From the NCBI RefSeq assembly GCF_037126435.1, contig NZ_CP147020.1:2097293-2161292 (forward strand): a DNA stretch of 64,000 nucleotides. Direction: 5' to 3'. Origin of the DNA: Bernardetia sp. ABR2-2B. Lineage in GTDB: Bacteria; Bacteroidota; Bacteroidia; Cytophagales; Bernardetiaceae. This document shows, in pieces, positions 1 to 15,948 of the stretch (its first letter is position 1; each line of letters begins with the position of its first letter). The translations under genes were made by a program, and so were the position numbers. Below the pieces are notes generated by a model. The model had not been told where the DNA came from, did no database searches, and worked only from the letters and a program-made list of their open reading frames with translations.

Positions 1-619
1 CTATTTCTGCTATTTTTTGAGCAATATCATCAGATAAAAGTTCTTTATCTGTAATTGATTTTTCTACAATAAAATGTTTAAATCTAAGTAGTTCGATGTT
101 TGGGTGGTCTTTTGGATAACCACGAGGAGCAGTTTTCAAAACTCCGTTTTCCATTTCTGAAAATCCATCAAAGTATTTTTTGAATTCTTTTTTATTGAAA
201 ATTGCTTTTAGTTCGTCTGCATTATAATCAATTTCTTCTCTAATTTTTTTGATATAATTTTTGTTGGGTTGATAAACACCAATGGCTAGAAATGAATTAT
301 CATTTGGGGCAATGTGAAGATAAAAAATAGGTTTTTCCGTTTTTCTTCCGTCTGGATGCAAAACAGCACTAAAATAAGTTTTGTAAGGTGTTTTGTCTTT
401 ACTAAAACGAATATCTCTATTCAATCTAAATATGCAATCTTTTGCTGTTATACTAGAAAAAGCAGGGTCAATTTTATGTATAAAATATTCTAAAAGAGCC
501 GTAACTAAGACAGAAAACTCTTCTCTTGCAGCTTCATATTCTTTTTTGTGTTCTTTAAACCAATCTCTATCGTTATTTTTATGTAATTTTTTGAGGAAAG
601 CTAATGTTAAAGGGAGCAT
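1..619 (-). CDS. DUF2461 (TIGR02453) family protein, C-terminus cut by window edge
   Basis: I translated this by hand from ATG 619; it runs off the left edge after 206 residues without a stop. The N-terminus carries RDWFKEHKKEYEAAREEF and then FRLNRDIRFSKDKTPYKT, followed by a motif near GVYQPNKNYIKKIREEID. This is the pattern of the DUF2461/TIGR02453 family, small cytoplasmic proteins of unknown biochemical role common in Bacteroidota. The family is usually about 220 residues, so only a short tail is missing. An in-frame TGA lies 13 codons upstream and no other ATG intervenes, so the start is well fixed. No function can be given beyond the family name. Confidence 0.85.
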   Translation of the reverse strand, partial: MLPLTLAFLKKLHKNNDRDWFKEHKKEYEAAREEFSVLVTALLEYFIHKIDPAFSSITAKDCIFRLNRDIRFSKDKTPYKTYFSAVLHPDGRKTEKPIFYLHIAPNDNSFLAIGVYQPNKNYIKKIREEIDYNADELKAIFNKKEFKKYFDGFSEMENGVLKTAPRGYPKDHPNIELLRFKHFIVEKSITDKELLSDDIAQKIAEI

Positions 620-834
620 TTTTAATGGGGAGTTCTGAATTAAAATTATGAAAAGTCATATTATATTTCGCTACTTCGATAAAACAGTATTGAAACAATT
701 AGGTTTGAGATAAAATGCTTTTTTTAGATTAATTTGTATAAATCAATACAAAATCAAAATTCTATTCTCAAAAAACAAAAAATTGTGTATCTTACCATTG
801 CGAATATTTTTTAGACAATTATACTACTTTTTGA

Positions 835-2964
835 ATGGCAACTTATCATACAGTACAGAGTGGCGACACACTTTGGGGAATTTCTAGGCAATATCAAATT
901 TCAGTAGATGAAATTCGAAGACTTAATAATATGTCAGATGCTAGTCTTTCGTTAGGACAACGTTTGCAAGTTAGCCAATCTACTCCTACGTATGGAGGTG
1001 GAAATACTGCCGTTGCATCTTCCCCAACAACCAGTTTTTACACCGTACAGGCTGGAGATTCACTTTGGAGAATTGCTACAAAACTGAATCTTTCTGTAAA
1101 TGAAATAAAAGCTTTAAATAACCTCACATCGAATGCACTTTCACTAGGACAACAGCTTCGTATAAGTGGTGGAGGTTCAGATGCTACGTCAGCTAGTATT
1201 TCTAATAGTACACCAACTATTCAAACCAATTCGCCAACAGTTGTAAAAGCTCCTGTTTTTACTCCTCGCCCAAGTTATGTAGTACAGGCTGGTGATAGTA
1301 TGTGGCGAGTTTCTCAAAAAGTCGGTGTTTCGGTAAATGAAATCAAAAGTATTAATAATCTGACAAGTAATATTTTGCGTATTGGTCAGATGCTTTATTT
1401 AGAAGAAAAGCCTGAAGTTGCCTCTCAAGCTGCACCTGTTCAAAACCCACAACCTACACAAGCTGCTCCAAAAATTATTTATCATACTGTTGTTTCAGGA
1501 GATTCTTTGTACAGAATTGCAATGGCATATAATGTTGGTGTTCAAGATATTAAAGAAAGTAATGGACTTAGCTCAAACGCACTTTCGTTAGGACAGCGTT
1601 TGATGATTACGAAAAAAGCAAAGACAACGAGTTATAGTTCTTCATCTAGCTCAAATAGTAGTGTAAGTACGAATATGGGAAGTGGAGCTTCGAAAGGAAA
1701 TTCTTCTTCTTCTGTGTCAGAGACAGGAAATATTTCGAAATACGAACAAAATAAAAAAGAAGTAATAAATCTTGATGCAATAAATGGAGTTCAGATTTTT
1801 GGAAGTGGAGGACTTTCTGCAAGTGTTGGGCGTGGTGGTGCAAACCGTCAGGTTGATGTAGAAAAAGTACAACAGCGTTTCGTACAGTTAGATTATATGA
1901 ATGCTGTCGGTGGTCTTTCACAAATTCAAGCTACTATTTCAGCAATAGATAATTTTCAACGAAGGAATAAAATTGACTGGTGGGCAGGAAAATCATCACT
2001 CATTGGAGCTTCTGGTTATTCTAATGGACTCATCAAGCCAAATGATGTAACTTATAAATTACTTAGAGAGCATACGACCTATAATATCACTTACAAAGAC
2101 CATAGAGGAAACTTAGAAAAAGTTCGCTTCTCTAATTTTGTAAGAAGTAATTATAGTGTTTATCCGTATGGGATTTCGTATTCTGGAACTGTAATTCACG
2201 ATATTCCAGCATCGTATTATGAAAGTGTTGGACTTTCACGCCAACTTGCCGAAGCCTTAGAGTTTGTGTCTAAAAACGAAGGAAAATTTGATGCAATAAA
2301 TAGCTATGATAAAGCTGCTTTTTCTTTTGGTTTTATTCAGTTTGCAGGACAAACAGGAGGAGGAACTTTCCCTCATATGATGGCACTCATAAAAGACCGA
2401 AACCCATCTTTATTTGAAGAAGCCTTTGGAAGATTTGGACTTGATGTAGAATACACATACAGAAATGACAAATACAATGCTGCAAAAATGGTCGTCTTTA
2501 CGCCAAATGGAAAGCGTTATGAAGGAACAGATGCAGAGAAATATATCCGTTCAGATAAAGTTCTTCATGGCGTATTCATAAGGGCAGGACAAAATGTTGA
2601 AGTAGCTAAACTACAAGTTTTGGCAGCCGTACAAGAATATGTAAAACCTGCACTTAGAGCCAAAATTTCACTTAATGCAAATGGAGTAGATGTAAACCGT
2701 GAGCCTGTTACAGATTTTATAAATTCAGCAGGAGGAATAACTGTCTTGATAGATTTAGCTGTAAATCAAGGACTTACAGGTGCATTGCGTATTTTTGCTC
2801 CAGCTATGGAACAAGTGATGAAACAAACAGGTATTCGTTCGGTAGCAGCACTCAAAAATATAGATGAAAAACGAGTAATTCAGACCATTGTAGCCAATGC
2901 GACTGATGCAAGAGTGCGTACTCGTCCTCAAAAAGTGCTTGATGCTGGGATTAGTTTTAGCTAA
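835..2964 (+). CDS. Four-LysM protein with C-terminal lysozyme-like region, no signal peptide
   Basis: The 709-residue protein opens directly with a LysM repeat. LysM copies lie near residues 3-46, 68-111, 148-190 and 215-259, each with a SGDTLW/AGDSLW-type start and an LSLGQ-type end; LysM binds peptidoglycan or chitin glycans. A Ser-rich linker (263-300) follows, then a peptidoglycan-binding-like helix (VEKVQQRFVQLDYM). Around residue 482 a Glu precedes a segment ending SFGFIQFAG that resembles lysozyme-fold hydrolases; the catalytic assignment is inference. The codon just before ATG 835 is an in-frame TGA, so no upstream signal peptide can exist in this frame. The protein is either cytoplasmic or exported by a route that needs no Sec signal. 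The next gene starts 14 bases downstream, suggesting co-transcription. Confidence 0.8.
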   Translation: MATYHTVQSGDTLWGISRQYQISVDEIRRLNNMSDASLSLGQRLQVSQSTPTYGGGNTAVASSPTTSFYTVQAGDSLWRIATKLNLSVNEIKALNNLTSNALSLGQQLRISGGGSDATSASISNSTPTIQTNSPTVVKAPVFTPRPSYVVQAGDSMWRVSQKVGVSVNEIKSINNLTSNILRIGQMLYLEEKPEVASQAAPVQNPQPTQAAPKIIYHTVVSGDSLYRIAMAYNVGVQDIKESNGLSSNALSLGQRLMITKKAKTTSYSSSSSSNSSVSTNMGSGASKGNSSSSVSETGNISKYEQNKKEVINLDAINGVQIFGSGGLSASVGRGGANRQVDVEKVQQRFVQLDYMNAVGGLSQIQATISAIDNFQRRNKIDWWAGKSSLIGASGYSNGLIKPNDVTYKLLREHTTYNITYKDHRGNLEKVRFSNFVRSNYSVYPYGISYSGTVIHDIPASYYESVGLSRQLAEALEFVSKNEGKFDAINSYDKAAFSFGFIQFAGQTGGGTFPHMMALIKDRNPSLFEEAFGRFGLDVEYTYRNDKYNAAKMVVFTPNGKRYEGTDAEKYIRSDKVLHGVFIRAGQNVEVAKLQVLAAVQEYVKPALRAKISLNANGVDVNREPVTDFINSAGGITVLIDLAVNQGLTGALRIFAPAMEQVMKQTGIRSVAALKNIDEKRVIQTIVANATDARVRTRPQKVLDAGISFS

Positions 2965-2978
2965 ATATACTTAGATTT

Positions 2979-3320
2979 ATGAAAACTACCTTTCAAGAAG
3001 ACGTAATAGACCTAGTTTTACAAATTCCAAAAGGACGAGTAACTTCTTATGGAGCGATTGCTAAATTTTTAGGACACAATAGAGGTGCAAGAATGGTAGG
3101 TTGGGTTATGAATAACTGTCAAGTTATCAATCAAACTAGAAATATAAAAATTCCTGCTCACAGAGTAGTAAATAGAAACGGACTTTTGAGTGGCAGACAC
3201 CACTTCGAAACTCCTACCAAAATGCAAGAGCTTTTAGAAGCTGAAGATATAAAAGTAGAAGAGCATCAAATACAAGATTTCGAAAAAGTATTTTGGAATC
3301 CTCAAACAGAACTTTTATAA
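2979..3320 (+). CDS. Alkyltransferase-like (ATL) protein of the MGMT family
   Basis: The 113-residue protein matches the DNA-binding domain of O6-alkylguanine-DNA alkyltransferases: IPKGRVTSYGAIAKFLG (winged helix with the Arg-finger region), then GWVMNNC, then IPAHRVVNRNG. Active enzymes have PCHRV; here Ala60 replaces the acceptor Cys, as in ATL proteins, which carry Trp or Ala. ATL proteins bind O6-alkylguanine without removing the alkyl group and hand the lesion to nucleotide excision repair. That role is family knowledge, not shown here. The gene follows the LysM gene by 14 bases and converges on the lipoprotein gene, with only one base between the two stops. Confidence 0.88.
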   Translation: MKTTFQEDVIDLVLQIPKGRVTSYGAIAKFLGHNRGARMVGWVMNNCQVINQTRNIKIPAHRVVNRNGLLSGRHHFETPTKMQELLEAEDIKVEEHQIQDFEKVFWNPQTELL

Positions 3321-3321
3321 A

Positions 3322-3660
3322 TTACTTCTTTCCCTTCTTCCAACCGTGGTTTCTGTGTCTTCCTTGTCCGTATTTGGATTCTTTGGGTGTGAAAAGGCGT
3401 ATGAAAAAATTACCTCTTTTTCCTTTAAATTCTTGCCCTTCATGATAATGCGACATTCTTACTTTACAACCCTCATCTTTACATTTTTTTGGTCTTTTTT
3501 TCTTCTTTTTTCCTGCTTCTTGTTCACTCGCTTGGTCTGATGGTTTGTTTCCTCTACAAGAAGTTAATGTTCCACTAAAAACAAATAATGCACAAATAAG
3601 TAATAGAAACGAAATATTTTTTCTCAAATAATGAGATAGAAATTGAGATTGGATTTTCAT
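3322..3660 (-). CDS. Small basic lipoprotein, unknown function
   Basis: This 112-residue protein has a hydrophobic segment at residues 16-33 followed by a lipobox ending TLTSC, so it is probably a lipoprotein. The mature part is very Lys-rich (KKKKKRPKKCKDEGCK), with a CxxxxC pair and a His/Lys/Gly-rich tail (GRHRNHGWKKGKK). I recognise no domain. The strongly positive charge would suit contact with lipopolysaccharide, nucleic acid or peptidoglycan, but that is a guess. The stop is one base from the stop of the convergent ATL gene. Confidence 0.65.
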   Translation of the reverse strand: MKIQSQFLSHYLRKNISFLLLICALFVFSGTLTSCRGNKPSDQASEQEAGKKKKKRPKKCKDEGCKVRMSHYHEGQEFKGKRGNFFIRLFTPKESKYGQGRHRNHGWKKGKK

Positions 3661-3802
3661 AAATTTTTTTAGTCAAAAAAAATTATCAGATACTTCAAAG
3701 CATAAGACAATTAAAGTGATAAACTTAATTTTATTATAATTTATAGCTCAAAAATCATACAAGCAAAATAAAAAAGACAATTTATTGAGAGATATCAATA
3801 AA

Positions 3803-3858
3803 AAAACAAACCTTAGTTTAATTTAGGATATCCTAAAATTTAAACTAAGGTTTGTTTT
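3803..3858 (-). terminator. Long hairpin terminator with nested palindrome
   Basis: An 18-bp perfect stem pairs 3803-3820 with 3841-3858. Inside it lies a second perfect 16-bp palindrome at 3822-3837. The A-run at 3801-3806 becomes a U-run for minus-strand transcription, so it should end the transcript of the gene at 3904-4314. The T-rich right flank may make it work in both directions. Confidence 0.8.
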
Positions 3859-3903
3859 GATTTAGTAAGAATCAGAGTGAAGTTTTAATAAAACATTGTT
3901 TGC

Positions 3904-4314
3904 TTATTCTGTAAGCCATTTTTCAACCTCTTCTAGATTACCAAATGTACGCAATTGAAAATCACCTTCTACCGTCTTACTATTATCTTCCATAAACTCC
4001 GCAGAAAGTTGAGAAAACAAATCACTTGATAAAATATGAGCAAACTTGGTCATCCCTGCTCCTATTGCTCTAGGCATCCATTCGTTTGCAATCCAATCAT
4101 TTACTTCATCCCAAACTCCTGTTATCTCTCTGTTATCATTTATGACAAACGATGTCTGGTTTTCTGTAAGTTCTTCTAGTATTGCCATAGCACCTTCTTT
4201 TATTTCATCAACGCTCAAGTCAGCACCCATCCAGTTTGCATAAGTAGTATTCTTTTCTTTCCAATGTTCTATTCGAACAAATACATGTTGGCTTTCATCT
4301 TTTACTTCTTTCAT
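3904..4314 (-). CDS. STAS/SEC14-like (SpoIIAA-like) domain protein
   Basis: The 136-residue soluble protein has no signal peptide or membrane segment. The middle carries a beta-strand/helix pattern (FVINDNREITGVWDEVNDW, then EWMPRAIGAGMTKFAHILS) typical of short Bacteroidota proteins annotated as STAS/SEC14-like or SpoIIAA-like. These are small alpha/beta domains of unclear ligand, and the assignment comes from pattern memory only. The gene is monocistronic: a 425-base gap lies upstream and the 3803-3858 hairpin downstream. Its role is unknown. Confidence 0.6.
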   Translation of the reverse strand: MKEVKDESQHVFVRIEHWKEKNTTYANWMGADLSVDEIKEGAMAILEELTENQTSFVINDNREITGVWDEVNDWIANEWMPRAIGAGMTKFAHILSSDLFSQLSAEFMEDNSKTVEGDFQLRTFGNLEEVEKWLTE

Positions 4315-4739
4315 AATAGTTTAGGGGAGTAAGGGGGAAATGGGAAATAAAAATAAATAAATATCTAAATTGATAATTATAGAACACTTAATTACACTAA
4401 GCATAATAAAAATCTTCAATATTAGACTATTAAATACTTTGTTTGTTTTTTATTTCTGTAAATCAAAAATCATGCAGTTTATGATAGTTTTTCACAAAAA
4501 AACAAGTTTGTAAAAAATAAAATTTGGAATAACTCAATTTTATATGTATTAAATTCTGCACAAGTGATTTAAATACACAAAATACTCCTATTTTTTTTTA
4601 CTTATAAAAACCCCAGCAAATAAACCTAATTACAGAATTTATTAAGAAACATAGATAAAAAATGAACCTTAGTGTATTTTTAACGTTATCATAAATAAAC
4701 ATATTTTAACTCCTACAAATAATACTAACTTTCAAAAAA
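4315..4739. other. 425-base AT-rich gap between divergent genes
   Basis: This stretch separates the STAS-like gene (minus) from the nicotinamidase-like gene (plus) and should hold both promoters. I see only A/T-rich sequence, no ORF worth calling, no RNA gene and no convincing -33/-7 pair. A weak TAACTTTC near 4726-4733 lies too close to the ATG to be a normal promoter. Confidence 0.5.
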
Positions 4740-5552
4740 ATGAAAAACGAAAACGCACTTCTGATAATCGATGCTCAATATGATTTCTGTAACCCTGCTG
4801 GTGCTTTGTATGTTCAAGATGCAGAAAATGATATTCAACGCCTTTCAGATTTTATCACAAGAAATGCAAAGCAATTAAACCATATTTGCGTAACACTTGA
4901 CAATCATCCAGTAAATGATATTTCGCACCCTTCTTTTTGGAAAGATGAAAAAGGAAATCAGCCAAATCCTTTTACTCAAATTACACTAAAAGAAGTAGAA
5001 GAAGAAAAATGGATTCCTAATTTTTACCCAAAGGAAACCAAAGAATATTTAAAAAACTTAGAAGCACAAGGCGAGTTTCCTCATTTTATTTGGACGCATC
5101 ACTGTCTCATTGGTTCAAAAGGAGCTGCCCTTGATGAAACACTTTCGAAAGCCTTAGAAGATTGGATAAAAATCAATAAAGAAAACGGTCAGTATAAACA
5201 ATATCAAGCCGTAACAAAAGGAACGTATCCACTTACCGAACATTTTGGTATTTTTGAAGCTCAAATTCCTGTTTCAGACCGACCAGAGACGCAGCTCAAT
5301 CAATCACTTTTGGATTCTTTAAATGAGTATGAAAATGTTTACTTAGCAGGACAAGCAAAGTCGCACTGTGTAGCAACGAGTTTGAAACAAATTTTAGATA
5401 ATGCGCCTACTCTTGTAAAAAAGGTAATTATTTTGGAAGATTGTATGTCTGATATTCCGAATATGGGGCATTTGGGAGAACCTATTTATAAAAGAGCCAA
5501 AGAGTTGGGAATTCAGTTTGTAAAGAGTGATAATCATAAAGTTATTATTTAA
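4740..5552 (+). CDS. Nicotinamidase / isochorismatase-family cysteine hydrolase
   Basis: The 270-residue cytoplasmic protein has the isochorismatase-like fold. The catalytic triad is visible as Asp11 in LLIIDAQYDF, Lys160 in AVTKGTYPL and Cys210 in AKSHCVATSL. DNHPVND (residues 54-60) supplies the metal-site Asp/His typical of nicotinamidases (PncA), which deamidate nicotinamide to nicotinate in NAD salvage. The length and the DNH motif favour nicotinamidase over isochorismatase, but another amide substrate is possible. It stands alone; the next element downstream is the GG-leader peptide gene. Confidence 0.85.
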   Translation: MKNENALLIIDAQYDFCNPAGALYVQDAENDIQRLSDFITRNAKQLNHICVTLDNHPVNDISHPSFWKDEKGNQPNPFTQITLKEVEEEKWIPNFYPKETKEYLKNLEAQGEFPHFIWTHHCLIGSKGAALDETLSKALEDWIKINKENGQYKQYQAVTKGTYPLTEHFGIFEAQIPVSDRPETQLNQSLLDSLNEYENVYLAGQAKSHCVATSLKQILDNAPTLVKKVIILEDCMSDIPNMGHLGEPIYKRAKELGIQFVKSDNHKVII

Positions 5553-5712
5553 ATATCAAAAGTCAATATGGAATAGTTAATATTTTATCTAGATAAAGAG
5601 AGGAAGAAATATTACAACGAATTCTATTTTTATATCAACACTTCTATTGTCATAACATACGAATACTAAACTGATATAGTTATAAGAAGATTTTTTTTTA
5701 TTTTTACAAAGT

Positions 5713-5728
5713 CATATTTGAATCAAAT
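5713..5728 (+). promoter_or_regulatory. Candidate -7 box overlapping a 13-bp palindrome, upstream of the GG-leader peptide
   Basis: CATATTTG at 5713-5720 matches the Bacteroidetes -7 consensus TAnnTTTG at seven of eight positions. It overlaps ATTTGA-A-TCAAAT (5716-5728), a perfect inverted repeat with a one-base centre. No clear -33 TTG is seen. The arrangement would suit a repressor site over the promoter of the peptide gene starting at 5765, but this is inference. Confidence 0.3.
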
Positions 5729-5764
5729 AGTGACTTAATTCTTTTTCTAAAAAAAAAATACATT

Positions 5765-5929
5765 ATGAAAAATTTAAAAATGAAATTCGGGAAATTTGCT
5801 ATATCTGCAAAACAAGTAAAAAAAATCAAAGGAGGTAATCCTAATTGTTATTACTATGTATGTAAGCGTACTAGTGCATTCGAATACTTGCAACCAGTTG
5901 GCTTAGATGCTGAATGTTGTCAAGATTAA
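5765..5929 (+). CDS. GG-leader (RiPP/bacteriocin-like) precursor peptide
   Basis: This 54-residue ORF was found by hand. The first 24 residues form a leader, KFAISAKQVKKIKGG near its end, that matches the GG-type leader of Bacteroidetes natural-product precursors (TIGR04149-like: hydrophobic/basic helix, then ...IKGG). Cleavage after Gly24 by a peptidase-containing ABC exporter would release a 30-residue core, NPNCYYYVCKRTSAFEYLQP followed by VGLDAECCQD, with four Cys and an aromatic YYY patch. The start ATG lies 44 bases after a candidate -7 box, and a terminator follows 17 bases after the stop, so it is a single-gene unit. No modification enzyme, C39 peptidase or exporter lies within this window. 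Whether the core is modified, disulfide-bonded or antimicrobial cannot be told from sequence. Confidence 0.75.
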   Translation: MKNLKMKFGKFAISAKQVKKIKGGNPNCYYYVCKRTSAFEYLQPVGLDAECCQD

Positions 5930-5945
5930 TCTTTTTTTTTAATTT

Positions 5946-5980
5946 AAAAGCCATTGTTTTGCTAAAGCAGTGGCTTTTTT
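5946..5980 (+). terminator. Rho-independent terminator of the GG-leader gene
   Basis: AAAAGCCA (5946-5953) pairs with TGGCTTTT (5971-5978). The stem is extended inward by a T-G wobble and two further pairs, and it ends in a T-run. It lies directly after the 5765-5929 peptide gene. Confidence 0.8.
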
Positions 5981-6059
5981 ATCATGTCTTTAATTGGTTC
6001 TTTAAAATCTAAAATCAATCTATACGTGCAAAAAAATTCCTATGTTCTTAAAATCTTAG

Positions 6060-6067
6060 TACCTTTG
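6060..6067 (+). promoter_or_regulatory. Candidate -7 box for leuS
   Basis: TACCTTTG at 6060-6067 is an exact TAnnTTTG -7 match, 68 bases before the leuS ATG. No good TTG is found 19-21 bases upstream, so only half of the promoter is supported. Confidence 0.45.
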
Positions 6068-6134
6068 AACTATTGTTCGTCAAAATGACTTTGACAGAAA
6101 AAGAAATAGAAACAAAAAGAAAAAATACGACAAA

Positions 6135-9029
6135 ATGGAATACAATCCACGTCTTATCGAACCCAAATGGCAATTAGCTTGGGAAGAAAAAGAGGTTTAT
6201 AAAGTTGAAAATGATACTACAAAACCGAAATATTATGTATTAGATATGTTTCCTTACCCTTCGGGTTCTGGGCTTCATGTCGGTCATCCACTTGGTTATA
6301 TTGCTTCAGATATTTTGAGTAGGTTTAAGCGTTTGAAGGGATTTAATGTTCTTCATCCGATGGGGTTTGATTCTTTTGGTCTTCCTGCCGAGCAGTACGC
6401 TATCGAAACAGGTCAGCATCCAGCCATAACAACAGCGCAAAATATTCAGACCTTCAAAGCACAATTTGATAAGATTGGTTTTTCATTTGATTGGTCAAGA
6501 GAAGTCAGAACTTCAAACCCAGATTATTACCGTTGGACACAATGGATTTTCAAACAGCTTTTCGAATCATTTTATAATAATGAAACAGAAAGAGCTGAAG
6601 AAATTCAAAAATTAATTACAACTTTCGAAACAGAAGGAAATCAAAAAGTAGATGCAGCTTGTGATGATGATACGCCTTCTTTTTCAGCAGAGGAATGGAA
6701 AAACTTTACAGAAAAAGAAAAATCAGATGTTTTATTAAAATATCGTTTGGCATATAAATCAGAAGCAATTGTAAACTGGTGTGCCGAATTAGGTTCTGTG
6801 TTGGCACATGATGAAATAAAAGATGGTCTTTCAGAGCGTGGTGGTTATCCTGTCGAAAGAAAAAAAATGCCTCAATGGATGATGCGTACAACAGCTTATT
6901 CAGACCGTCTTTTGAGTGGTTTGGAAGAGGTAGAATGGTCAGATGCACTCAAAGAAATGCAAAAAAATTGGATTGGAAAATCCTACGGTGCAGAACTTAG
7001 TTTTCAAATTGAAGAAAATAAGGATAATCGGAAAAGCGAAGAATTAAAAGAACTTATTGCCTTCACTACTCGCCCAGATACAATTTATGGAGTAACTTAT
7101 ATTGCCCTTGCCCCAGAGCTTGAAATAATTGATGAGCTTACTACGAAAGAGCAACGAGCAGCCGTAGAGAATTATGTCAAAGTTGCTAAAAACCGTTCGG
7201 AGAGAGAGCGTCAGACAGAAGTAAAAACTGTTTCGGGTGTCTTTACAGGAAGTTATGTAATTAATCCAATTTCTGGAAAAAGAACTCCTATTTGGGTCGC
7301 TGATTATGTTCTTTCTGGGTATGGAACAGGTGTTGTGATGGGCGTACCGTCGTCTGATGAGCGAGATTTTCGTTTTGCTACTCATTTTGGTTTGGATATT
7401 ATAAAAGTAATCAAAGAAACCAAAACCGATTCAACTGGAAATGTTTTGGAAGCCTACACAGAAAAAACAGGCGAAATAATGAATTCTGATTTTCTTGATG
7501 GAATGTCTGTAAAAGATGCCATTCAAGCAGCTATCAAAAAGCTAGAAGAGAAAAAAGCAGGTACAGGAAAAATAAACTTTAGGCTTAGAGATGCTGCTTT
7601 TGGTCGCCAAAGATATTGGGGAGAGCCGATTCCGATTTACTATAAAGATGATATTCCTCATTCTTTACCTGACTTAGACTTACCACTGATGCTTCCAGAA
7701 GTAGATAGTTACAAGCCAACGGCAGAAGGCGAACCACCTCTAGGACGTGCAGAAGGCTTTGTTTATCAAGGAAAATATCCTTATGAGCTTACCACAATGC
7801 CGGGGTGGGCAGGTTCTTCTTGGTATTTCTTGCGTTATACTGACCCTCAAAATATGCGTGTTTTTGCCTCAAAAGAAGCTGTAGATTATTGGAATCAAGT
7901 TGATGTTTATATCGGTGGCGCAGAACACGCCGTAGGTCATTTGTTGTATTCTCGTTTCTTTACTAAGTTTTTACACGATAAAGGATTTTTGAATTTTGAT
8001 GAGCCATTCAAAAAACTAGTAAATCAAGGAATGATTCAAGGAAAATCTAGTTTGATTTATCGTATTAGTGGTTTCCAAGTTTATTTGAGTGAAGGAATTT
8101 ATCAGCAAGTAGAAAGTCTAACCTCTGATGCAGAAAAAATAGAAGGAATAAACGAAGTAGCAGGACATGAAGCTATTCCAGCAAATACAAAAATTAGTAT
8201 TACTCCTCTTCACGTTCCTGTAAGTATGGTAAAAGATGATGTTTTAGATATTGAAAAGTATCAAAAATTCAGACCAGAGACAGAAAACGCAGAATTTATC
8301 AAAGAAGAAAATGGCAGTTTTGTTTGTGGTTCGCAAGTAGAAAAAATGTCTAAACGTCTTCATAATGTTGTCAATCCTGATGATGTAGTTTCAGAATATA
8401 GTGCTGATGCGCTTCGTTTGTACGAAATGTTTTTAGGTCCTTTAGAGTATTCAAAGCCTTGGGATACAAGTGGAATTGATGGCGTTCAGAAATTTTTGAG
8501 AAAAGTATGGCGTTTGTTCTATGACAATAATGGCGATTTGGTTTTGACAAATGAAAAGCCAACAAAAGAAGAGTTTAAGACACTTCACAAAACCATCAAA
8601 AAAATAGAAGATGATATTGAGCGTTTGTCTTTAAATACTTCTGTAAGTGCTTTTATGATTTGTGTAAACGAGCTTACTTCGATGAAATGCCACAAGAGAG
8701 AGATTTTAGAGCCGTTTTTGGTTATTCTTTCTTCTTTTGCACCTCATATTACCGAAGAGCTTTGGCATATTGCTTTAGAAAAAGACACTTCTATTATTAA
8801 GGCAGAATTTCCAGTTTATAATGAAGAATATTTGAAAGAAAATGAATTTGAATATCCAGTTTCGATAAATGGAAAAGTACGTGCTAAAATGTCTTTTGCC
8901 TTAGAAACGCCAAAAGAAGATATTGAAAAGCACGTTTTGGGAGATGAAACTATTCAGAAATGGCTAGAAGGAAAAACTCCAAAGCGTTTTATCTTAGTAC
9001 CTAAGAAGATTGTTAATATTGTGATTTAA
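6135..9029 (+). CDS. leuS: Leucyl-tRNA synthetase
   Basis: The 964-residue class I synthetase charges tRNA-Leu. The HIGH motif appears as HVGH at residues 48-51 (PYPSGSGLHVGHPLG) and the KMSKS motif as KMSKR at 737-741 (EKMSKRLHNVVNPDD). The CP1 editing region follows with TTRPDTIYGVTY and YGTGVVMGVPSSDERD (residues about 310-420). The C-terminus has the anticodon-binding helices and ends FPVYNEEYLKENEFEYPVSI onward. The protein is about 100 residues longer than the E. coli enzyme because of an insert after WTQWIFKQLFESF (about 55 residues) and another of roughly 85 before KMSKR, both usual in Bacteroidota. It is monocistronic, with a strong terminator at 9039-9075. Confidence 0.98.
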   Translation: MEYNPRLIEPKWQLAWEEKEVYKVENDTTKPKYYVLDMFPYPSGSGLHVGHPLGYIASDILSRFKRLKGFNVLHPMGFDSFGLPAEQYAIETGQHPAITTAQNIQTFKAQFDKIGFSFDWSREVRTSNPDYYRWTQWIFKQLFESFYNNETERAEEIQKLITTFETEGNQKVDAACDDDTPSFSAEEWKNFTEKEKSDVLLKYRLAYKSEAIVNWCAELGSVLAHDEIKDGLSERGGYPVERKKMPQWMMRTTAYSDRLLSGLEEVEWSDALKEMQKNWIGKSYGAELSFQIEENKDNRKSEELKELIAFTTRPDTIYGVTYIALAPELEIIDELTTKEQRAAVENYVKVAKNRSERERQTEVKTVSGVFTGSYVINPISGKRTPIWVADYVLSGYGTGVVMGVPSSDERDFRFATHFGLDIIKVIKETKTDSTGNVLEAYTEKTGEIMNSDFLDGMSVKDAIQAAIKKLEEKKAGTGKINFRLRDAAFGRQRYWGEPIPIYYKDDIPHSLPDLDLPLMLPEVDSYKPTAEGEPPLGRAEGFVYQGKYPYELTTMPGWAGSSWYFLRYTDPQNMRVFASKEAVDYWNQVDVYIGGAEHAVGHLLYSRFFTKFLHDKGFLNFDEPFKKLVNQGMIQGKSSLIYRISGFQVYLSEGIYQQVESLTSDAEKIEGINEVAGHEAIPANTKISITPLHVPVSMVKDDVLDIEKYQKFRPETENAEFIKEENGSFVCGSQVEKMSKRLHNVVNPDDVVSEYSADALRLYEMFLGPLEYSKPWDTSGIDGVQKFLRKVWRLFYDNNGDLVLTNEKPTKEEFKTLHKTIKKIEDDIERLSLNTSVSAFMICVNELTSMKCHKREILEPFLVILSSFAPHITEELWHIALEKDTSIIKAEFPVYNEEYLKENEFEYPVSINGKVRAKMSFALETPKEDIEKHVLGDETIQKWLEGKTPKRFILVPKKIVNIVI

Positions 9030-9038
9030 TATTTTTAT

Positions 9039-9075
9039 CGAACGGTTCACTTTGAGTGAACCGTTCGTTTTTTTT
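9039..9075 (+). terminator. Rho-independent terminator of leuS
   Basis: A perfect 13-bp GC-containing stem (9039-9051 with 9055-9067) encloses a TTG loop and is followed by eight T residues. It is a textbook terminator ten bases after the leuS stop. Confidence 0.93.
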
Positions 9076-9083
9076 ATAATTTT

Positions 9084-9561
9084 ATGTTAGAATTTGATAA
9101 TAAAGGCTTTTTGATTCCTAATGATGTAATTCCTTCTAGTTTACAAGAGCTAGAACAATTTTTTGTGCTAGAAATGCCAACAGGACAGAGGAAACATCAT
9201 TTTGATTCTTATCTAAATTACTCTAAAGAATTAAAAAAACTTTGTAAAGATATTGAATTAACACAATGGATTGATGGTTCTTTTGTTACAAAAAAAGAAA
9301 ATCCAAATGATATAGATTTAGTTACTTTTTTGGATTTTGAGAGTACAAAATCTATCCACCATCTTTTAGAAAGTTTTGGAAAAGGTTCATCAAAAACTAT
9401 CTATGAAGTAGATGCGTATATAGTTTATACCTATTCTATTGATGATAAAAGGTATTTTCTTTATCAAAGTGATAGCACGTTGGATACATAAGTTTACTAA
9501 GACTAGACCAAATAAAAGAGGTCGTTCAATGAAGAAAGGATTTTTAGAAATTAAATTTTAA
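9084..9561 (+). pseudogene. DUF6932-like nucleotidyltransferase-fold protein, frameshifted near its C-terminus
   Basis: The intact frame from ATG 9084 gives 135 residues, stopping at 9491. It contains WIDGSFVTKKENPNDIDLV, the GS...DxD signature of the nucleotidyltransferase fold as found in DUF6932 proteins. If the reading is shifted by +1 between about 9472 and 9478, it continues as RWIHKFTKTRPNKRGRSMKK then GFLEIKF to a TAA at 9559-9561. That is the kind of basic W..F..TR..R.G...KGFLEI tail I expect for this family. A one-base insertion or two-base deletion explains this. The shorter form may still be made. Family members often precede a small partner gene; here 9573-9872 follows 11 bases later. 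Confidence applies to the frameshift reading. Confidence 0.65.
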
Positions 9562-9572
9562 ACATATAAATT

Positions 9573-9872
9573 ATGGACAAATATAAAATATACAAATTAT
9601 TAGACCTTATTGAGCAGATAAATGAAGTAAATAAAATGATAAAACTTCATAGTGAAAATGATTCTGAATTTATGGCTTCTCAATATAGAGTAGAAAAGTC
9701 TGAATACATTGCAGAACTAATAAAAACACTAAACTCTTCTAAAGTTCAGACAGAAGAAAATTATTTATTACTCAGCCGTCTGCTTAATGAATTTTATCCA
9801 AATAATAACTTGATGCAAAAAGAAAACATCAATTATGAAGAGGAGTTTGCTAGGTTAGGTAATGCTTCATAA
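9573..9872 (+). CDS. Small helical protein, possible partner of the upstream nucleotidyltransferase-like gene
   Basis: The 99-residue soluble protein has no signal or membrane segment. It is Glu/Lys/Asn-rich with heptad-like Leu/Ile spacing (LLDLIEQINEVNKMIKLHS, then EYIAELIKTLN), so a short coiled coil or helical hairpin is likely. I recognise no family. Its position 11 bases after the DUF6932-like gene resembles two-gene toxin-antitoxin-like pairs in which a small helical protein accompanies a nucleotidyltransferase; that comparison is inference. The downstream membrane-protein gene starts 15 bases after its stop, so all may share a transcript. Confidence 0.6.
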   Translation: MDKYKIYKLLDLIEQINEVNKMIKLHSENDSEFMASQYRVEKSEYIAELIKTLNSSKVQTEENYLLLSRLLNEFYPNNNLMQKENINYEEEFARLGNAS

Positions 9873-9887
9873 AACAAATTGAAACCT

Positions 9888-10460
9888 ATGAAAACCAAAC
9901 TCATCAAATTTCACTTCATCATTCTACTTATTTTAGTGGTAAATTTCATAATTACACTAAGTTTTGATATTGGACTGAATAATTATATCAAAATTGGATT
10001 GAAGATTCTTCTTTATGGAAGTGCTTTAGTTGGTTCTGTTGCATTCTTCAAACCTTTTAAATTTGTAACAGCTTATTTTTCTCTATATGTAATTTCTCCA
10101 CTACTGATTTTTTTGGCTTGGTTAGCTGATGGAATTTTTGGTGCTATCTTAGCAAGTGTTTTTGTAGGAATATTTTATACTTCCACACCTGTTTATAAAC
10201 AAGATAATTATGAAATTCATAGTGCATTTAAAGGTTTTATGGGAAACTGTTGTAGATATGAAGTATATAAAAATAACTTTCTATTCTCAAAGAATACATC
10301 AACATTTGCTTATACAGAATACACAACCATAAATGGTGAAAAAGTAGAAGAATTAGCTCCTTTTTTAGATGGTTCGAAAATTAAAAACATCAAAATTGAA
10401 AACGATAGTATTTTTATAGAATTTAAAGATAATTCTAGTAGAAGTTTTGAGCTTGATTAA
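9888..10460 (+). CDS. Membrane protein, tandem paralogue A
   Basis: The protein (190 residues from ATG 9888) begins MKTKLIKFHFIILLILVVN. It has about four hydrophobic segments in the first 110 residues, then a soluble C-terminal domain containing TPVYKQDNYEIHS and ending in beta-rich sequence (NDSIFIEFKDNSSRSFELD). I chose ATG 9888 over the TTG at 9879 because the next gene begins with the same residues and nearly the same bases at its ATG. It is paralogous to 10478-11107, with VPVYKQ.DYE and NDSIFI.F shared near matching positions. No known family is recognised. It is likely an inner-membrane protein with a C-terminal domain of unknown orientation. Confidence 0.65.
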   Translation: MKTKLIKFHFIILLILVVNFIITLSFDIGLNNYIKIGLKILLYGSALVGSVAFFKPFKFVTAYFSLYVISPLLIFLAWLADGIFGAILASVFVGIFYTSTPVYKQDNYEIHSAFKGFMGNCCRYEVYKNNFLFSKNTSTFAYTEYTTINGEKVEELAPFLDGSKIKNIKIENDSIFIEFKDNSSRSFELD

Positions 10461-10477
10461 ATACTGAATATACAACT

Positions 10478-11107
10478 ATGAAAACCAAACTAATCAAATT
10501 TCACTTCATCATTCTACTTATTTTAGTGGTTAATTTATTTATCATTGATGGATATAATTTCGGACTAAATAGCTACGCAAAAATGGCTTTAATAGCTCTT
10601 CTTTTTGGAAGTGGCATTTCAATGTTTGCTCTCAATGTCAAGCCAGTATTTAAACTTTTAGTAAGATTATATTCTACCTTTTATATTGCTGTTGCTTTAT
10701 GGATTTCCTCTATTATTTTCACTACTGATAAACATCTTACTCTTGTATTTCCGTATGATTTTTATGAGCCATTACGAATACATGTGCCTGTATATAAACA
10801 GTCTGATTATGAAGTTTACAATTATGACAAAAAAGGTGTTTTAAGTTTTCTTAGTTGTGGTGGTGGTATTGAATCTGGTTATTACTTTTTAGACAAAAAT
10901 TATTTTATTTTTAAAACTAGAATTGGATATTTTTATTCTGGTCATTCTGTAAAGGTTATAAGTGAAGGAAATGATGTGGAATTTACTAAACGTGATGCAT
11001 ACAAATACTTAATGGGAAAGGATATACAAAATATTAATGTATCAAATGATAGTATTTTTATAAACTTCTATGAAAGTGATAATATGGTTTTTGAAATTGA
11101 AAACTAA
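10478..11107 (+). CDS. Membrane protein, tandem paralogue B
   Basis: This 209-residue protein shares its first 19 residues with the gene just upstream; over the first 53 bases the two genes differ at one position. After that the sequences diverge strongly. It keeps several membrane segments up to about residue 90, then VPVYKQSDYEVYN and a beta-rich end (NDSIFINFYESDNMVFEIEN) aligned with the first copy. There is a Gly-rich CGGGIESGYYF segment that the other copy lacks. The function is unknown. The pair looks like an old duplication whose 5' ends were later made uniform, or are held uniform by selection. Confidence 0.65.
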   Translation: MKTKLIKFHFIILLILVVNLFIIDGYNFGLNSYAKMALIALLFGSGISMFALNVKPVFKLLVRLYSTFYIAVALWISSIIFTTDKHLTLVFPYDFYEPLRIHVPVYKQSDYEVYNYDKKGVLSFLSCGGGIESGYYFLDKNYFIFKTRIGYFYSGHSVKVISEGNDVEFTKRDAYKYLMGKDIQNINVSNDSIFINFYESDNMVFEIEN

Positions 11108-11116
11108 AATAACACT

Positions 11117-11716
11117 ATGAAATACAAGAAAGTTACTTTAGAAAATATTGAAGAATTTGCTATTCCTCTTTCTACTCATATTTTGAAATGGAAATTTGAA
11201 TTAGAAAATGAACAAGAATTATATAAAGAATTCGAAGACCAAATTATTCCATTAAATCCAGAGGCTTCAAAATTCTTATATCAATTTCAAAATTCTCAAA
11301 AAATATTGGATTTAGAGGTTAGTCAATATTTTGAAAAAGAAGAAAGTATAATAGTGAAGGAAGATTCAGACAAGGAAGTGAAAAAATGGCTTTATAAGCG
11401 AGGAATTAAATTTGATACAAAAGTATTTTGGTTAGAATCTGAAACACATGCATTTGTTTTAACTTGGAAAATGGTAATTAAATTTTGGGAAAGTATATTT
11501 TTTGCTTCTGATGAAATAATTTGGGATAAGACTTTAAATTGGGTTCTTGGGTATCATCATGAAAGAGCTTTTTATTTTTCAAAAGATAGAATTTATGATA
11601 CAAATACAGAAAGTAAAGAAATAGCTAAAACGAATGAGATTCTAAAAGACTTTAAAAGTAAAGTTTCACAGATAAATTCAAATTCCAAATATACTTCAAA
11701 TCCTTTTCGTTCTTGA
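11117..11716 (+). CDS. Hypothetical soluble protein (possibly DUF2947-like)
   Basis: The 199-residue cytoplasmic protein has no signal peptide. The region about residues 98-160 (KVFWLESETHAFVLTWKM, then IKFWESIFFASDEIIW and WVLGYHHERAFYFSKD) is rich in aromatic residues and resembles, weakly, the DUF2947 pattern of a TW..f..FW..F segment followed by WVL..H.E..FYF. I would not rely on that family name. It lies 9 bases after the tandem membrane proteins and is the last gene of the accessory island, with the minus-strand hibernation factor converging on it. Confidence 0.55.
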   Translation: MKYKKVTLENIEEFAIPLSTHILKWKFELENEQELYKEFEDQIIPLNPEASKFLYQFQNSQKILDLEVSQYFEKEESIIVKEDSDKEVKKWLYKRGIKFDTKVFWLESETHAFVLTWKMVIKFWESIFFASDEIIWDKTLNWVLGYHHERAFYFSKDRIYDTNTESKEIAKTNEILKDFKSKVSQINSNSKYTSNPFRS

Positions 11717-11723
11717 TATTTAC

Positions 11724-11758
11724 CAAAAAAATAAGGCTTAGTCATAGACTAAACCTTA
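11724..11758 (-). terminator. Terminator of the ribosome hibernation gene
   Basis: A 12-bp stem with one mismatch pairs 11732-11743 with 11747-11758 around an ATA loop. The A-run at 11724-11731 reads as U-run on the minus strand, downstream of the gene at 11796-12110. Confidence 0.7.
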
Positions 11759-11795
11759 CATAAAAATCGCTTCTGAATTAGAAGAACTTCTTTTC

Positions 11796-12110
11796 TTAAC
11801 GATTCTGTATTTTTCCTAAGAAACTATCCAAAGCAGCTTTTGCTTTATCAATCGCCGATGAAACAGCTTTTTCAATTGTGTCTTCTTGTGCCGAAACAGT
11901 AATAGGTTGTCTTCCTTCAAATCTTGATTCTAATACACATTTTATGTCATCAGGACCTCCTTTTTTTCCATTTTCATCAGAAATATGGACTTCTACTCTA
12001 GTAACATGCTCATCATATCTATCTAGTTTTTTTGATATTAAGTCAGAAAAAAATTCTTGAGTTCTTGCGTCTCCATCAATAGTGTTGTCTGTGTTAAATT
12101 GAACTTTCAT
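11796..12110 (-). CDS. raiA: Ribosome hibernation-promoting factor, HPF/RaiA family
   Basis: The 104-residue protein has the short-form HPF/YfiA beta-alpha-beta-beta-beta-alpha fold: strand MKVQFNTDNTI, helix FSDLISKKLDRYD, strands VTRVEVHISDENGKKGG and KCVLESRFEGRQPITVSA, then the long basic helix AVSSAIDKAKAALDSFLG. Members bind the decoding centre of the 30S subunit in stationary phase and block tRNA and mRNA binding. It lacks the C-terminal dimerisation domain of long HPF. It is monocistronic with its own terminator. Confidence 0.9.
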   Translation of the reverse strand: MKVQFNTDNTIDGDARTQEFFSDLISKKLDRYDEHVTRVEVHISDENGKKGGPDDIKCVLESRFEGRQPITVSAQEDTIEKAVSSAIDKAKAALDSFLGKIQNR

Positions 12111-12251
12111 TAAGTGTTTTTTTAGGTTAAAAAATATAAGTTTATAAAAAAGAACGAGCCTTTGATAACTAACACCAATTTTTGATAGAAGGTTTGTAAT
12201 TAATCAGAATAATTCAGAGAAATGAGAATCGTAGAAGCTAATGCAACAAAA

Positions 12252-12944
12252 TTATCTCTTTCCAAAAATAGCACTTCCTACACGTACAAGCGTTGCACCT
12301 TCTTCAATAGCAATTGGATAATCTCCACTCATTCCCATAGATAACTCTTTAAAATCTATGTTCTTTTTTGTCATATTTTCATTGAATGAATCTTGATTTT
12401 CCTTTATTTTATCAAAAAGACTTTTTAGTTTCTTAAACTCTGAACGAACTTGATTTTCATTATCTGTAAAGGTTGCCATTCCCATCAGACCGACAAGTTT
12501 TATGTTTTCAAAGGTTTTTAATTCTTCATTTTCTAAGATTTCATAGAGTTCCTTTTCATCTAAGCCAAACTTCGTATCTTCTTCTGCAATGTGCATTTGT
12601 AACAAACACTCAATTACTCTTTCGTTTTGTGCAGCTCTTTTATTTATTTCTTTGAGTAACTTAAAACTCTCAACAGAATGAATCATCGAAACAAAAGGTG
12701 CAATATATTTCGTTTTTTTGGTTTGAAGAGTTCCTATTAAATGCCATTCTATATCTTTTGGTAGCTTTTCATACTTTTCTGTAAGTTCTTGTACTCGGTT
12801 TTCTCCAAAGGCTTTGAAGCCCAAATCATATAATGTTTGTAATTTTTCTAAAGGATGAGTTTTGGTAACAGCAATTAATTTTGCCTCTGAGTTTTCTAGT
12901 TTTGATAAAATTTCATCTAAATTTTCTTTGATAGACTCTTTCAT
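12252..12944 (-). CDS. PLP homeostasis protein, YggS/PLPBP family
   Basis: The protein (230 residues from ATG 12944) has the alanine-racemase-like TIM barrel of YggS. The PLP lysine is Lys28 in KLIAVTKTHPLEKL, followed by FGENRVQEL, IEWHLIGTLQTKK and the C-terminal SMGMSGDYPIAIEEGATLVR, all family hallmarks. YggS proteins bind pyridoxal phosphate and affect vitamin B6 and amino-acid balance without a known reaction. An ATG at 12989 would add 15 residues and overlap the upstream gene. The shorter start fits homologues, and the skipped stretch lies over a 12-bp direct repeat. The gene probably shares a transcript with 12979-13557. Confidence 0.9.
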   Translation of the reverse strand: MKESIKENLDEILSKLENSEAKLIAVTKTHPLEKLQTLYDLGFKAFGENRVQELTEKYEKLPKDIEWHLIGTLQTKKTKYIAPFVSMIHSVESFKLLKEINKRAAQNERVIECLLQMHIAEEDTKFGLDEKELYEILENEELKTFENIKLVGLMGMATFTDNENQVRSEFKKLKSLFDKIKENQDSFNENMTKKNIDFKELSMGMSGDYPIAIEEGATLVRVGSAIFGKR

Positions 12945-12947
12945 TTC

Positions 12948-12973
12948 TAATTCGTAATTTTTAATTCGTAATT
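12948..12973. repeat. Two copies of a 12-bp direct repeat at the yggS start
   Basis: TAATTCGTAATT occurs at 12948-12959 and again at 12962-12973, two bases apart, just upstream of the preferred yggS start. Each copy is nearly self-complementary (AATTACGAATTA). It may be a simple slippage product. Confidence 0.6.
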
Positions 12974-12978
12974 GACTT

Positions 12979-13557
12979 TTATTTACCATATTTTTCTAAA
13001 AAACCTTCCCAATCTTTGGGAATATCTTGTATGACGGCATCACCTTTTGTTGCTAGATTAGTATGCAGAAAAGTAAGTATAAATTCTACTTCATTTTTAT
13101 AATCAAATTGTAAATCAGGGTGTAATTTGATAAGTTTTTTCAAAGCAAAATCCATTCGCTTACAAACATAAGCTCCAAATTTATCAGCACGATAAGCATA
13201 TTTTTTCAGAAAACTTTCTTGTTTTTTGAAGGTTTGGGAGAGTAAATACAAAGTTAATTCTATTTCTCCCTTTTTGTCTTTTGTGATTTTGACATGGCGA
13301 GTAATTGCTCCGTTTTCTGTTCGCATTGCCATCATCAACCAACCAGGTGTTCCGTGATTGTAACTTGCCATAGTATCAACTTCTTCTTTTATCTCTTCAG
13401 CTAATGCTTTTGTTTCGTTTTCGTCTCCAAAAAGCTCATGTTCTAGTCTTGCAATGAGTAGTTCATCTTTTGCAATCAGACGAAGTAGTATTTTATCTTT
13501 CTCTTTTTGTGGCATTTGACAAATTGCCTCCTTTAACTCTTTTGCTATTTTTGCCAT
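12979..13557 (-). CDS. Conserved-looking hypothetical protein upstream of yggS
   Basis: The 192-residue cytoplasmic protein has no signal or membrane helices. The N-terminal part (AICQMPQKEKDKILLRLIAK) and middle (LLSQTFKKQESFLKKYAYRA, FGAYVCKRMDFALKKLIKL) are mostly helical, and it ends DIPKDWEGFLEKYGK. I do not recognise a domain. Its stop lies 35 bases from the chosen yggS start and its own start is 20 bases from the 7TM/SpoIIE gene end, so the three minus-strand genes probably form one operon. Confidence 0.7.
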   Translation of the reverse strand: MAKIAKELKEAICQMPQKEKDKILLRLIAKDELLIARLEHELFGDENETKALAEEIKEEVDTMASYNHGTPGWLMMAMRTENGAITRHVKITKDKKGEIELTLYLLSQTFKKQESFLKKYAYRADKFGAYVCKRMDFALKKLIKLHPDLQFDYKNEVEFILTFLHTNLATKGDAVIQDIPKDWEGFLEKYGK

Positions 13558-13577
13558 AGATTAAATTAATTTCTGAT

Positions 13578-15794: not shown

Positions 15795-15831
15795 TAAAAG
15801 GGGAAATAATTCTTGATACTAGAAAGATACG

Positions 15832-15853
15832 AATACTTATTTATTACTGCAAA
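15832..15853 (-). promoter_or_regulatory. Promoter of the 7TMR/SpoIIE gene
   Basis: On the minus strand TTTG (15850-15853) is separated by about 10-20 bases of AT-rich sequence from TATCTTTC (15832-15839), where the -7 consensus is TAnnTTTG. The longer TTTTTG run upstream gives alternative -33 placements. The site lies about 40 bases before the ATG at 15794. Confidence 0.4.
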
Positions 15854-15948
15854 AACGAAAAAAATTTATAATTTTGTACTTATCTTATAATCTAGCACTA
15901 TTGTTTTTTATTTTTACTCACTTTATTGGGTTTTGATAATCTTATTCT

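Follow-up and report, generated by a model that had tools for sequence, protein, structure and literature searches.

The small gene at the centre of this analysis probably encodes a stand-alone substrate of a GG-leader secretion system that acts in trans, a peptide that would be cut and exported by a PCAT encoded elsewhere in the chromosome, held by disulfide bonds and, more likely, antagonistic in function. It lies in a stretch of 64 kb (hereafter the window; C1:2097293-2161292 of a Bernardetia genome of 5.38 Mb in four contigs), and positions given without a contig or locus name refer to that stretch. We regard the peptide as a novel form of the known GG-leader/PCAT peptides, and its interest lies less in the single gene than in the system behind it.

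The encoded peptide, MKNLKMKFGKFAISAKQVKKIKGG / NPNCYYYVCKRTSAFEYLQPVGLDAECCQD, is followed by a stop codon and was read from the ORFs listed for positions 1-16000; its parts and surroundings are collected in the table. The preliminary description had reported a 54-residue ORF with a basic leader ending in IKGG, a core with four Cys and a YYY patch, all of which are present as described. The leader had also been called helical, which was not confirmed by a single-sequence AF2 model with a pLDDT of about 50 over that region. The same modeling of the peptide alone placed a β-hairpin in the core (residues 29-35/40-47), at a mean pLDDT of 63 that is too weak for use. The core has a net charge of -2 and contains one Ser and one Thr beside its four Cys. 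A pattern scan of both strands found no other ORF in the 64 kb that combines a basic GG leader with a core of at least two Cys. Searches with the peptide returned no Pfam match at E 10, no meaningful relative among solved structures (one match at E 0.37) and no relative at E 0.01 among 72,556 plasmid records, and a search for repeats near the gene gave nothing telling.

Table. Features of the precursor gene and its flanks in the window, and the TlpA-like genes of the distant exporter cluster (locus coordinates).
Feature	Position	Strand	Evidence or remark
Isochorismatase-domain hydrolase, upstream neighbour, conserved flank	4740..5552	+	PF00857; nicotinamidase-like by eye
TATTTG, possible promoter, low confidence	5715..5720	+	relaxed -7 pattern only
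Precursor peptide gene, 54 aa	5765..5929	+	ORF; orthologs at same site in G004 and G005
Leader, 24 aa, K-rich, KGG at end	5765..5836	+	I at -4, V at -7, I at -12, F at -14 and -17
Core, 30 aa, predicted secreted peptide	5837..5926	+	Cys pattern C-x4-C-x17-CC
Intrinsic-terminator-like hairpin, 3′ side running into U tract	5946..5984	+	-16.9 kcal/mol; 0/200 shuffles as stable
TACCTTTG, upstream of leuS	6060..6067	+	pattern match
leuS, downstream neighbour, conserved flank	6135..9029	+	Pfam scan
TlpA-like proteins (four)	L007:9846-14129; L007:about 14785 to L008:1623; L008:1662-3509		AhpC-TSA in three scanned

The two flanking genes are an isochorismatase-type hydrolase, which is 85-89% identical in five congeners, and leuS. 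Neither an immunity gene nor a regulator or sensor gene directly adjoins the precursor. The neighborhood was checked from the ORFs listed for positions 1-16000 and by Pfam on the two direct neighbors; genome-wide matches to C39, SPASM, LanC and VKOR all fall outside the window, in agreement with the earlier statement that it holds no modification or export genes. The same description gave the gene its own terminator, and the stable hairpin that follows the stop codon bears this out. Hairpins of differing sequence also lie 3′ of the orthologs in G005 and G004, with 3/200 and 0/200 shuffles as stable, respectively. A simple consensus scan reported no terminator-like site and missed the hairpin of the window gene. 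On the 5′ side of the peptide, the full Bacteroidetes -7 pattern, TANNTTTG, is not matched, and TATTTG bears what we take to be a weak resemblance to that element. A simple sigma-70 scan gave 7 promoter-like sites against 3.6 expected, of which we make nothing, and the upstream regions of the three same-site orthologs show no convincing alignment that would reveal a shared promoter. Downstream of the hairpin, TACCTTTG is presumably a Bacteroidetes-type -7 element; identical letters precede leuS in G004, G005 and G006, and its location suggests a separate start for leuS after the terminator. Further along the window, at 9879-11107, are two tandem related ORFs with MKTKLIKFHFIILLILVVN near their starts that look by eye like membrane proteins.

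The conservation of the gene argues that it is more than a chance reading frame. A peptide match at E ≤ 0.01 occurs in five of the seven genomes of the genus, the source genome counted, and in G004 and G005 the ortholog occupies the same site between the hydrolase and leuS. In G006 the gap between those two genes is 109 bp and the peptide is absent. For the others, synteny could be read only in part: no leuS start falls in the flank read for G001, the G002 contig ends, and G003 gave no hydrolase match. The leaders of the three same-site orthologs are 79-88% identical with pN/pS of 0.18-0.26, and the cores are 26-47% identical with pN/pS of 0.34-0.72, rough values that rest on 24 to 30 codons per comparison. 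The four Cys columns are invariant in the five-row A2 alignment (C-x4-C ... CC), and the YYY patch is replaced by WHY and TYV in the orthologs. Because same-site orthologs exist in two other genomes and the leader is constrained, a chance ORF can be ruled out, and from its sequence the window ORF is a real, selected gene. Leader conservation, which the preliminary description had left to comparison with relatives, was found in congeners and in genomes of the family. Wider collections added little: an A2 scan of a contig collection confirmed 3 of 308 pattern stretches, all from Bernardetia sp. MAG-102, and a class-wide A2 search matched the source genome alone among 395. Because the congeners G001-G005 are missing from those matches, that sample evidently lacks them and says little about the genus.

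The leader places the peptide in a family whose members share an address and differ in payload. In the source genome, six matches to the window peptide were found at E ≤ 1, the peptide itself included. Four of these are same-leader precursors at C1:2299557-2308961, within 10 kb of the genome's sole PCAT, and the fifth further match (C1:2572604, E 0.3) is a related peptide with a shorter leader at an unrelated site. One sister (at L008:3797-3973) shares 47-48% identity with the window peptide along its whole length, core included. The name of orphan given to the peptide therefore holds locally, where it is alone in the window, and fails genome-wide, as its four relatives lie near a PCAT ~196 kb away. 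The search for exporters and leader-sharing peptides suggested at that stage has thus yielded one C39 exporter and four such peptides, and together they lend good support to the earlier proposal of a GG-leader precursor that uses machinery encoded elsewhere.

Across the 11 genomes of the family, the A2 profile gave 33 matches in 8 genomes. An ORF pattern collected 31 of these, and the remaining two (one in G001, one in G003) were inspected individually. The leader has 24 residues in 28 of the collected ORFs and is the shorter variant MNL.KFKKFALTT in the other 3/31. All 31 leaders are hydrophobic at -4 and -12 and carry F at both -14 and -17; position -7 is hydrophobic in 22/31, with Ala counted. 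In the C39 protease described in PMC6363468, leader residues -4, -7 and -12 sit in a groove of the enzyme. The cores are hypervariable, with a mean pairwise identity of 0.21 compared to 0.61 for the leaders (435 pairs), and a full core with 2, 4, 6 or 8 Cys is present in 29/33 matches. The exceptions are a 3-Cys core in the source genome; a precursor beside the PCAT of G003 (L041, G003:C31:172533-172616) that stops four residues past GG with one Cys and is probably a broken copy, a longer relative being present in the source genome; L053:1480-1647 of G001, with NGA replacing GG and a single Cys, which looks like a decayed copy; and L112:561-710 (G003:C32), whose GG leader precedes a short core without Cys and which either carries another sort of payload or does not belong to the family. 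Among the 30 full cores of the collected ORFs, 29 have an even number of Cys (naive binomial P of 3e-8), counts that are not independent because the cores are related. After clustering at 30% single linkage, 8/9 clusters are all-even (P of 0.02), a weak test in which the linkage chained 18 cores; the largest cluster includes the odd-Cys core. Read from sequence in this way, a shared leader followed by variable, mostly even-Cys cores is what one would expect of disulfide peptides that have a common address. Twenty-five of the 30 full cores are neutral or acidic when His is not counted, which speaks against a classical cationic bacteriocin.

The machinery to which this address would lead is encoded on the same contig as the window gene. 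The PCAT (L007:6971-9187, 738 aa) contains C39, ABC membrane and ATPase domains with the catalytic residues C15, H89 and D105 intact, and it is the only C39-peptidase ABC exporter in the genome. The nearest same-leader precursor starts 370 bp from its gene. Also in the cluster are a HlyD-like adaptor, which scores 61 bits with TIGR01843 (cut-off 209), and four TlpA-like proteins interleaved with the precursors. Three of the latter were scanned and gave AhpC-TSA and weak TPR matches, and the fourth, which spans the border between two loci, was recognized by eye; the first three, again by eye, resemble one another closely in their C-terminal redoxin parts and diverge in their N-terminal parts. 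They may be specialized for thiol exchange or for protection. In G001 the precursor remnant is followed by another redoxin-like ORF (L053:1709-2398), and a TTTTGATAA-like stretch, seen by eye, is common to the upstream regions of several cluster precursors.

The cluster also encodes a fusion protein of 544 aa (L008:4064-5698), ~206 kb away from the precursor in the window. It combines matches to C39, VKOR and a thioredoxin-like domain and is the sole VKOR match over cut-off in the source genome. Its redox motifs are kept, a CxxC in the VKOR part (CSLC) and CPPC in the thioredoxin part. None of the catalytic residues Cys, His and Asp is present in its C39 domain, and this holds for all six Bernardetia fusions. 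We aligned fusions from 30 loci, of which L093 was not extracted, L091 is a fragment and L081 is incomplete. The nucleophile column holds Cys in 0/30 rows, the Asp column holds D in 13/30 and the His column H in 1/30, all outside Bernardetia, and both CxxC motifs are present in 28/30 loci, with L081 and L093 as the exceptions. C39-like domains without a nucleophile are described in type I exporters, where they are thought to recruit substrate (PMC6363468). The literature search, confined to the words "peptidase C39," "vitamin K epoxide reductase" and "thioredoxin," found no paper combining them. In G002, the match to the fusion (L081, G002:C185:12120-13749) is split in two, with two TAG stops in the second part, so that the gene may be broken or misassembled; two precursor matches remain in that genome nonetheless.

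The peptide family tends to occur together with the fusion. Of the 11 family genomes, 8 match the A2 profile, 10 match PF03412 and 7 carry the fusion, and all seven fusion-bearing genomes carry peptides. All genomes that have both a precursor and a PCAT-sized C39 protein (6/6, G000-G005) contain a pair of them no more than ~1.1 kb apart, the ABC domains having been checked in G000. G003 contains a second such protein that is not beside a peptide match, and G006, G007 and G008 have a PCAT-sized C39 protein with neither fusion nor peptide match. G060 has the peptide and lacks the fusion, and in G010, an assembly in ~80 contigs, the peptide match is not accompanied by any C39 match. A distance of ~2.2 Mb separates the PCAT from the fusion in both G001 and G004, so the parts must act in trans, and such action is evidently usual. 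At the level of the order, the fusion occurs in 59/390 genomes (E 1e-20) and the peptide family in 10/390 (E 1e-4); 8/10 peptide-bearing genomes carry the fusion versus 51/380 other Cytophagales-level genomes, and the Fisher P value of 6e-6 is optimistic because the genomes are related.

The fusion also keeps similar company outside the genus. GG-leader ORFs with at least two Cys were found at 9/24 fusion loci outside Bernardetia (L084, L088, L089, L091, L094, L099, L100, L102 and L104), compared to 0.5 expected from two-base-block shuffles and 0/4 control loci, and were absent from flanks of ~1.5 kb at the other 15/24. The nine positive loci indicate that the fusion accompanies GG-leader Cys-rich peptides beyond Bernardetia. 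The leader type differs in 8/9 of them (MKKLSL.. with ..GG). Locus L100, from a different family of the order, has a pair of short Cys-rich ORFs with GG leaders (starting at 3005 and 3277) beside its VKOR fusion, and the ORF at 3277 scores just below the cut-off of NF047798 (leader_Chryseo).

We propose that the K-rich leader of the window peptide would dock through its hydrophobic residues at -4, -7 and -12 onto C39-type domains, and that it would bind both the C39 protease of the PCAT and the C39-like domain of the VKOR fusion, which may hold the precursor by this leader. The four Cys would then be joined into two disulfides; the fusion, as the sole VKOR of the genome, is the most likely enzyme for this step, with the TlpA-like proteins perhaps also handling thiols. 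The single PCAT would cut after GG and export the 30-residue core with the HlyD-like adaptor. The order of these steps and the place of oxidation we infer, and the final product would be a small disulfide-bonded secreted peptide, more likely with an antagonistic, bacteriocin-like role than with that of a signal. We tentatively entertain a more specific possibility, somewhat less probable than its opposite, that the parts form a leader-guided disulfide system in which one GG leader, hypervariable and mostly even-Cys cores scattered along the chromosome, a VKOR-thioredoxin membrane oxidase whose dead C39 domain would read the leader, and a single PCAT work together, disulfides being installed before or during PCAT cleavage and export. 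The same tentative reading would extend this system from Bernardetia to, in other forms, other Cytophagales.

Two other fates for the Cys-rich core can be set against disulfide formation. In the first, a radical SAM enzyme would modify the peptide, as a TIGR04149-type RiPP precursor, to give thioether or C-C cross-links. This would agree with the weak leader similarity to that family (E 0.098 for the window peptide, 0.0015 for its sister), and membership in that family had been suggested from the start. The scores of 12.6 and 18.4 bits, respectively, fall short of the curated cut-off of 25, as do those of all 8/8 scanned Bernardetia precursors. The genome's only SPASM radical SAM enzyme (C1:2079085) is not near the PCAT and has no precursor among the ORFs of 45 or more residues in its 1.5-kb flanks, and Pfam scans of genes that surround the clustered precursors identified an exporter, redoxins and a VKOR but no radical SAM enzyme. 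On the sub-cut-off scores and the lack of a precursor beside the SPASM enzyme we rejected this identity as very improbable. Lanthionine formation, the other modification raised earlier, is more improbable still. The genome does encode LanC-like and LanB N-terminal domain proteins (C1:4278332), and Cys, Ser and Thr all occur in the core. Against class I enzymes, the core offers its four Cys a single Ser and a single Thr, and the G005 ortholog has one Thr and no Ser. Moreover, the LanB/LanC locus, which has the genome's only LanC, is 2.2 Mb from the window gene and comes with its own two precursors, whose leader is of another type (MKTNKKLKLNTKKVVILSDEQQ..GG); one of them was scanned and reached 20.7 bits with lant_leader_L1a (cut-off 22). 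These precursors led us to reject the lanthipeptide identity. The locus itself (L110:640-3962, G000:C1 near 4278332) is a class I lanthipeptide-like arrangement of two precursors, a LanC-like protein and a LanB N-terminal domain protein, and the genome's only PCAT lies away from it.

The remaining alternatives concern what the gene is for. That the peptide is a secreted signal, or pheromone, without antagonistic function is unlikely, if not negligibly so. An acidic or neutral core, the lack of an adjoining immunity gene and a stable single site beside leuS in three genomes would suit a signal, whereas no regulator or sensor gene directly adjoins, and the hypervariability of the family's cores relative to their leaders fits antagonism better than a shared signal. 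We consider it quite improbable that the gene is a relic, copied away from the cluster and no longer expressed. Its distance from the cluster, the weak promoter resemblance, its absence from G006 and the decayed-looking copies of other precursors in the genus could be read in that way; against this, pN/pS in the leader is low, and the open frame, the four Cys and a 3′ hairpin are kept in three genomes. The reading that we prefer is an expressed substrate of a PCAT acting in trans, probably with an antagonistic role.

If this is right, the window peptide is one piece of a secreted disulfide peptide family in which tag and payload evolve separately. Precursors would then need not cluster with their machinery, and genome mining based on clusters would miss such orphans. 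The C39-like/VKOR/thioredoxin fusion would offer a candidate, open to testing, for an enzyme that forms disulfides under the guidance of a leader; were that tentative reading true, it would be a dedicated leader-guided disulfide synthase, with a logic comparable to that of a RiPP enzyme.

Parts of this arrangement are familiar. The TIGR04149 (GG_sam_targ_CFB) precursors share a Bacteroidetes GG leader of similar length, and differ in that the window leader is below the family cut-off and has no radical SAM neighbor. In prochlorosin/Nif11-type systems, one leader family precedes many dissimilar cores that are processed in trans by one machinery. The Bernardetia family resembles them in its shared leader, dissimilar cores and probable processing in trans, and departs from them in having another leader and, we presume, disulfides in place of lanthionines. 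The C39-like domain of type I exporters such as HlyB likewise lacks the catalytic Cys, but according to PMC6363468 it is part of an ABC exporter, whereas the dead domain in Bernardetia is fused to VKOR and thioredoxin. TMcin, a staphylococcal RiPP, is a small secreted peptide with a cluster-encoded disulfide-forming oxidoreductase, a DsbA-family enzyme whose product disulfide is needed for activity; it comes from a Gram-positive organism and has a transmembrane-helix precursor, and the available account names no C39-like or VKOR domain (PMC13252029). PCATs are given as the usual route for GG leaders in RiPP clusters of Bacteroidales (PMC10352776). The closest counterparts by description are the bacteroidetocins, class II-like peptides for which a class IIf has been proposed (PMC6671954), which have in common with the window peptide a Bacteroidetes host, a GG leader, a four-Cys core, a PCAT exporter and a thiol oxidoreductase presumed to make disulfides. 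As reported there, Bacteroides is said to lack general disulfide machinery, transposon insertions in a region including the PCAT gene abolish bacteroidetocin activity, deletion of the oxidoreductase gene attenuates it, and a four-gene region makes active toxin in E. coli. The bacteroidetocin leader has 15-16 residues and the mature peptide 42-48 in that source, compared to 24 and 30 here, and the first two members carry charges of +6 and +2, compared to -2. Their genes are grouped with a five-TM protein, a PCAT and mostly a thiol oxidoreductase, whereas the window precursor stands alone between an isochorismatase-domain protein and leuS, although its sister peptides do adjoin the PCAT and VKOR fusion. 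The Bernardetia oxidoreductase, a C39-like/VKOR/thioredoxin fusion, is also unlike that of the bacteroidetocin systems as described. Because leader length, core length, charge and gene order all differ, we do not claim membership in that class; by analogy with its published description, the window peptide may nevertheless work as a bacteroidetocin does.
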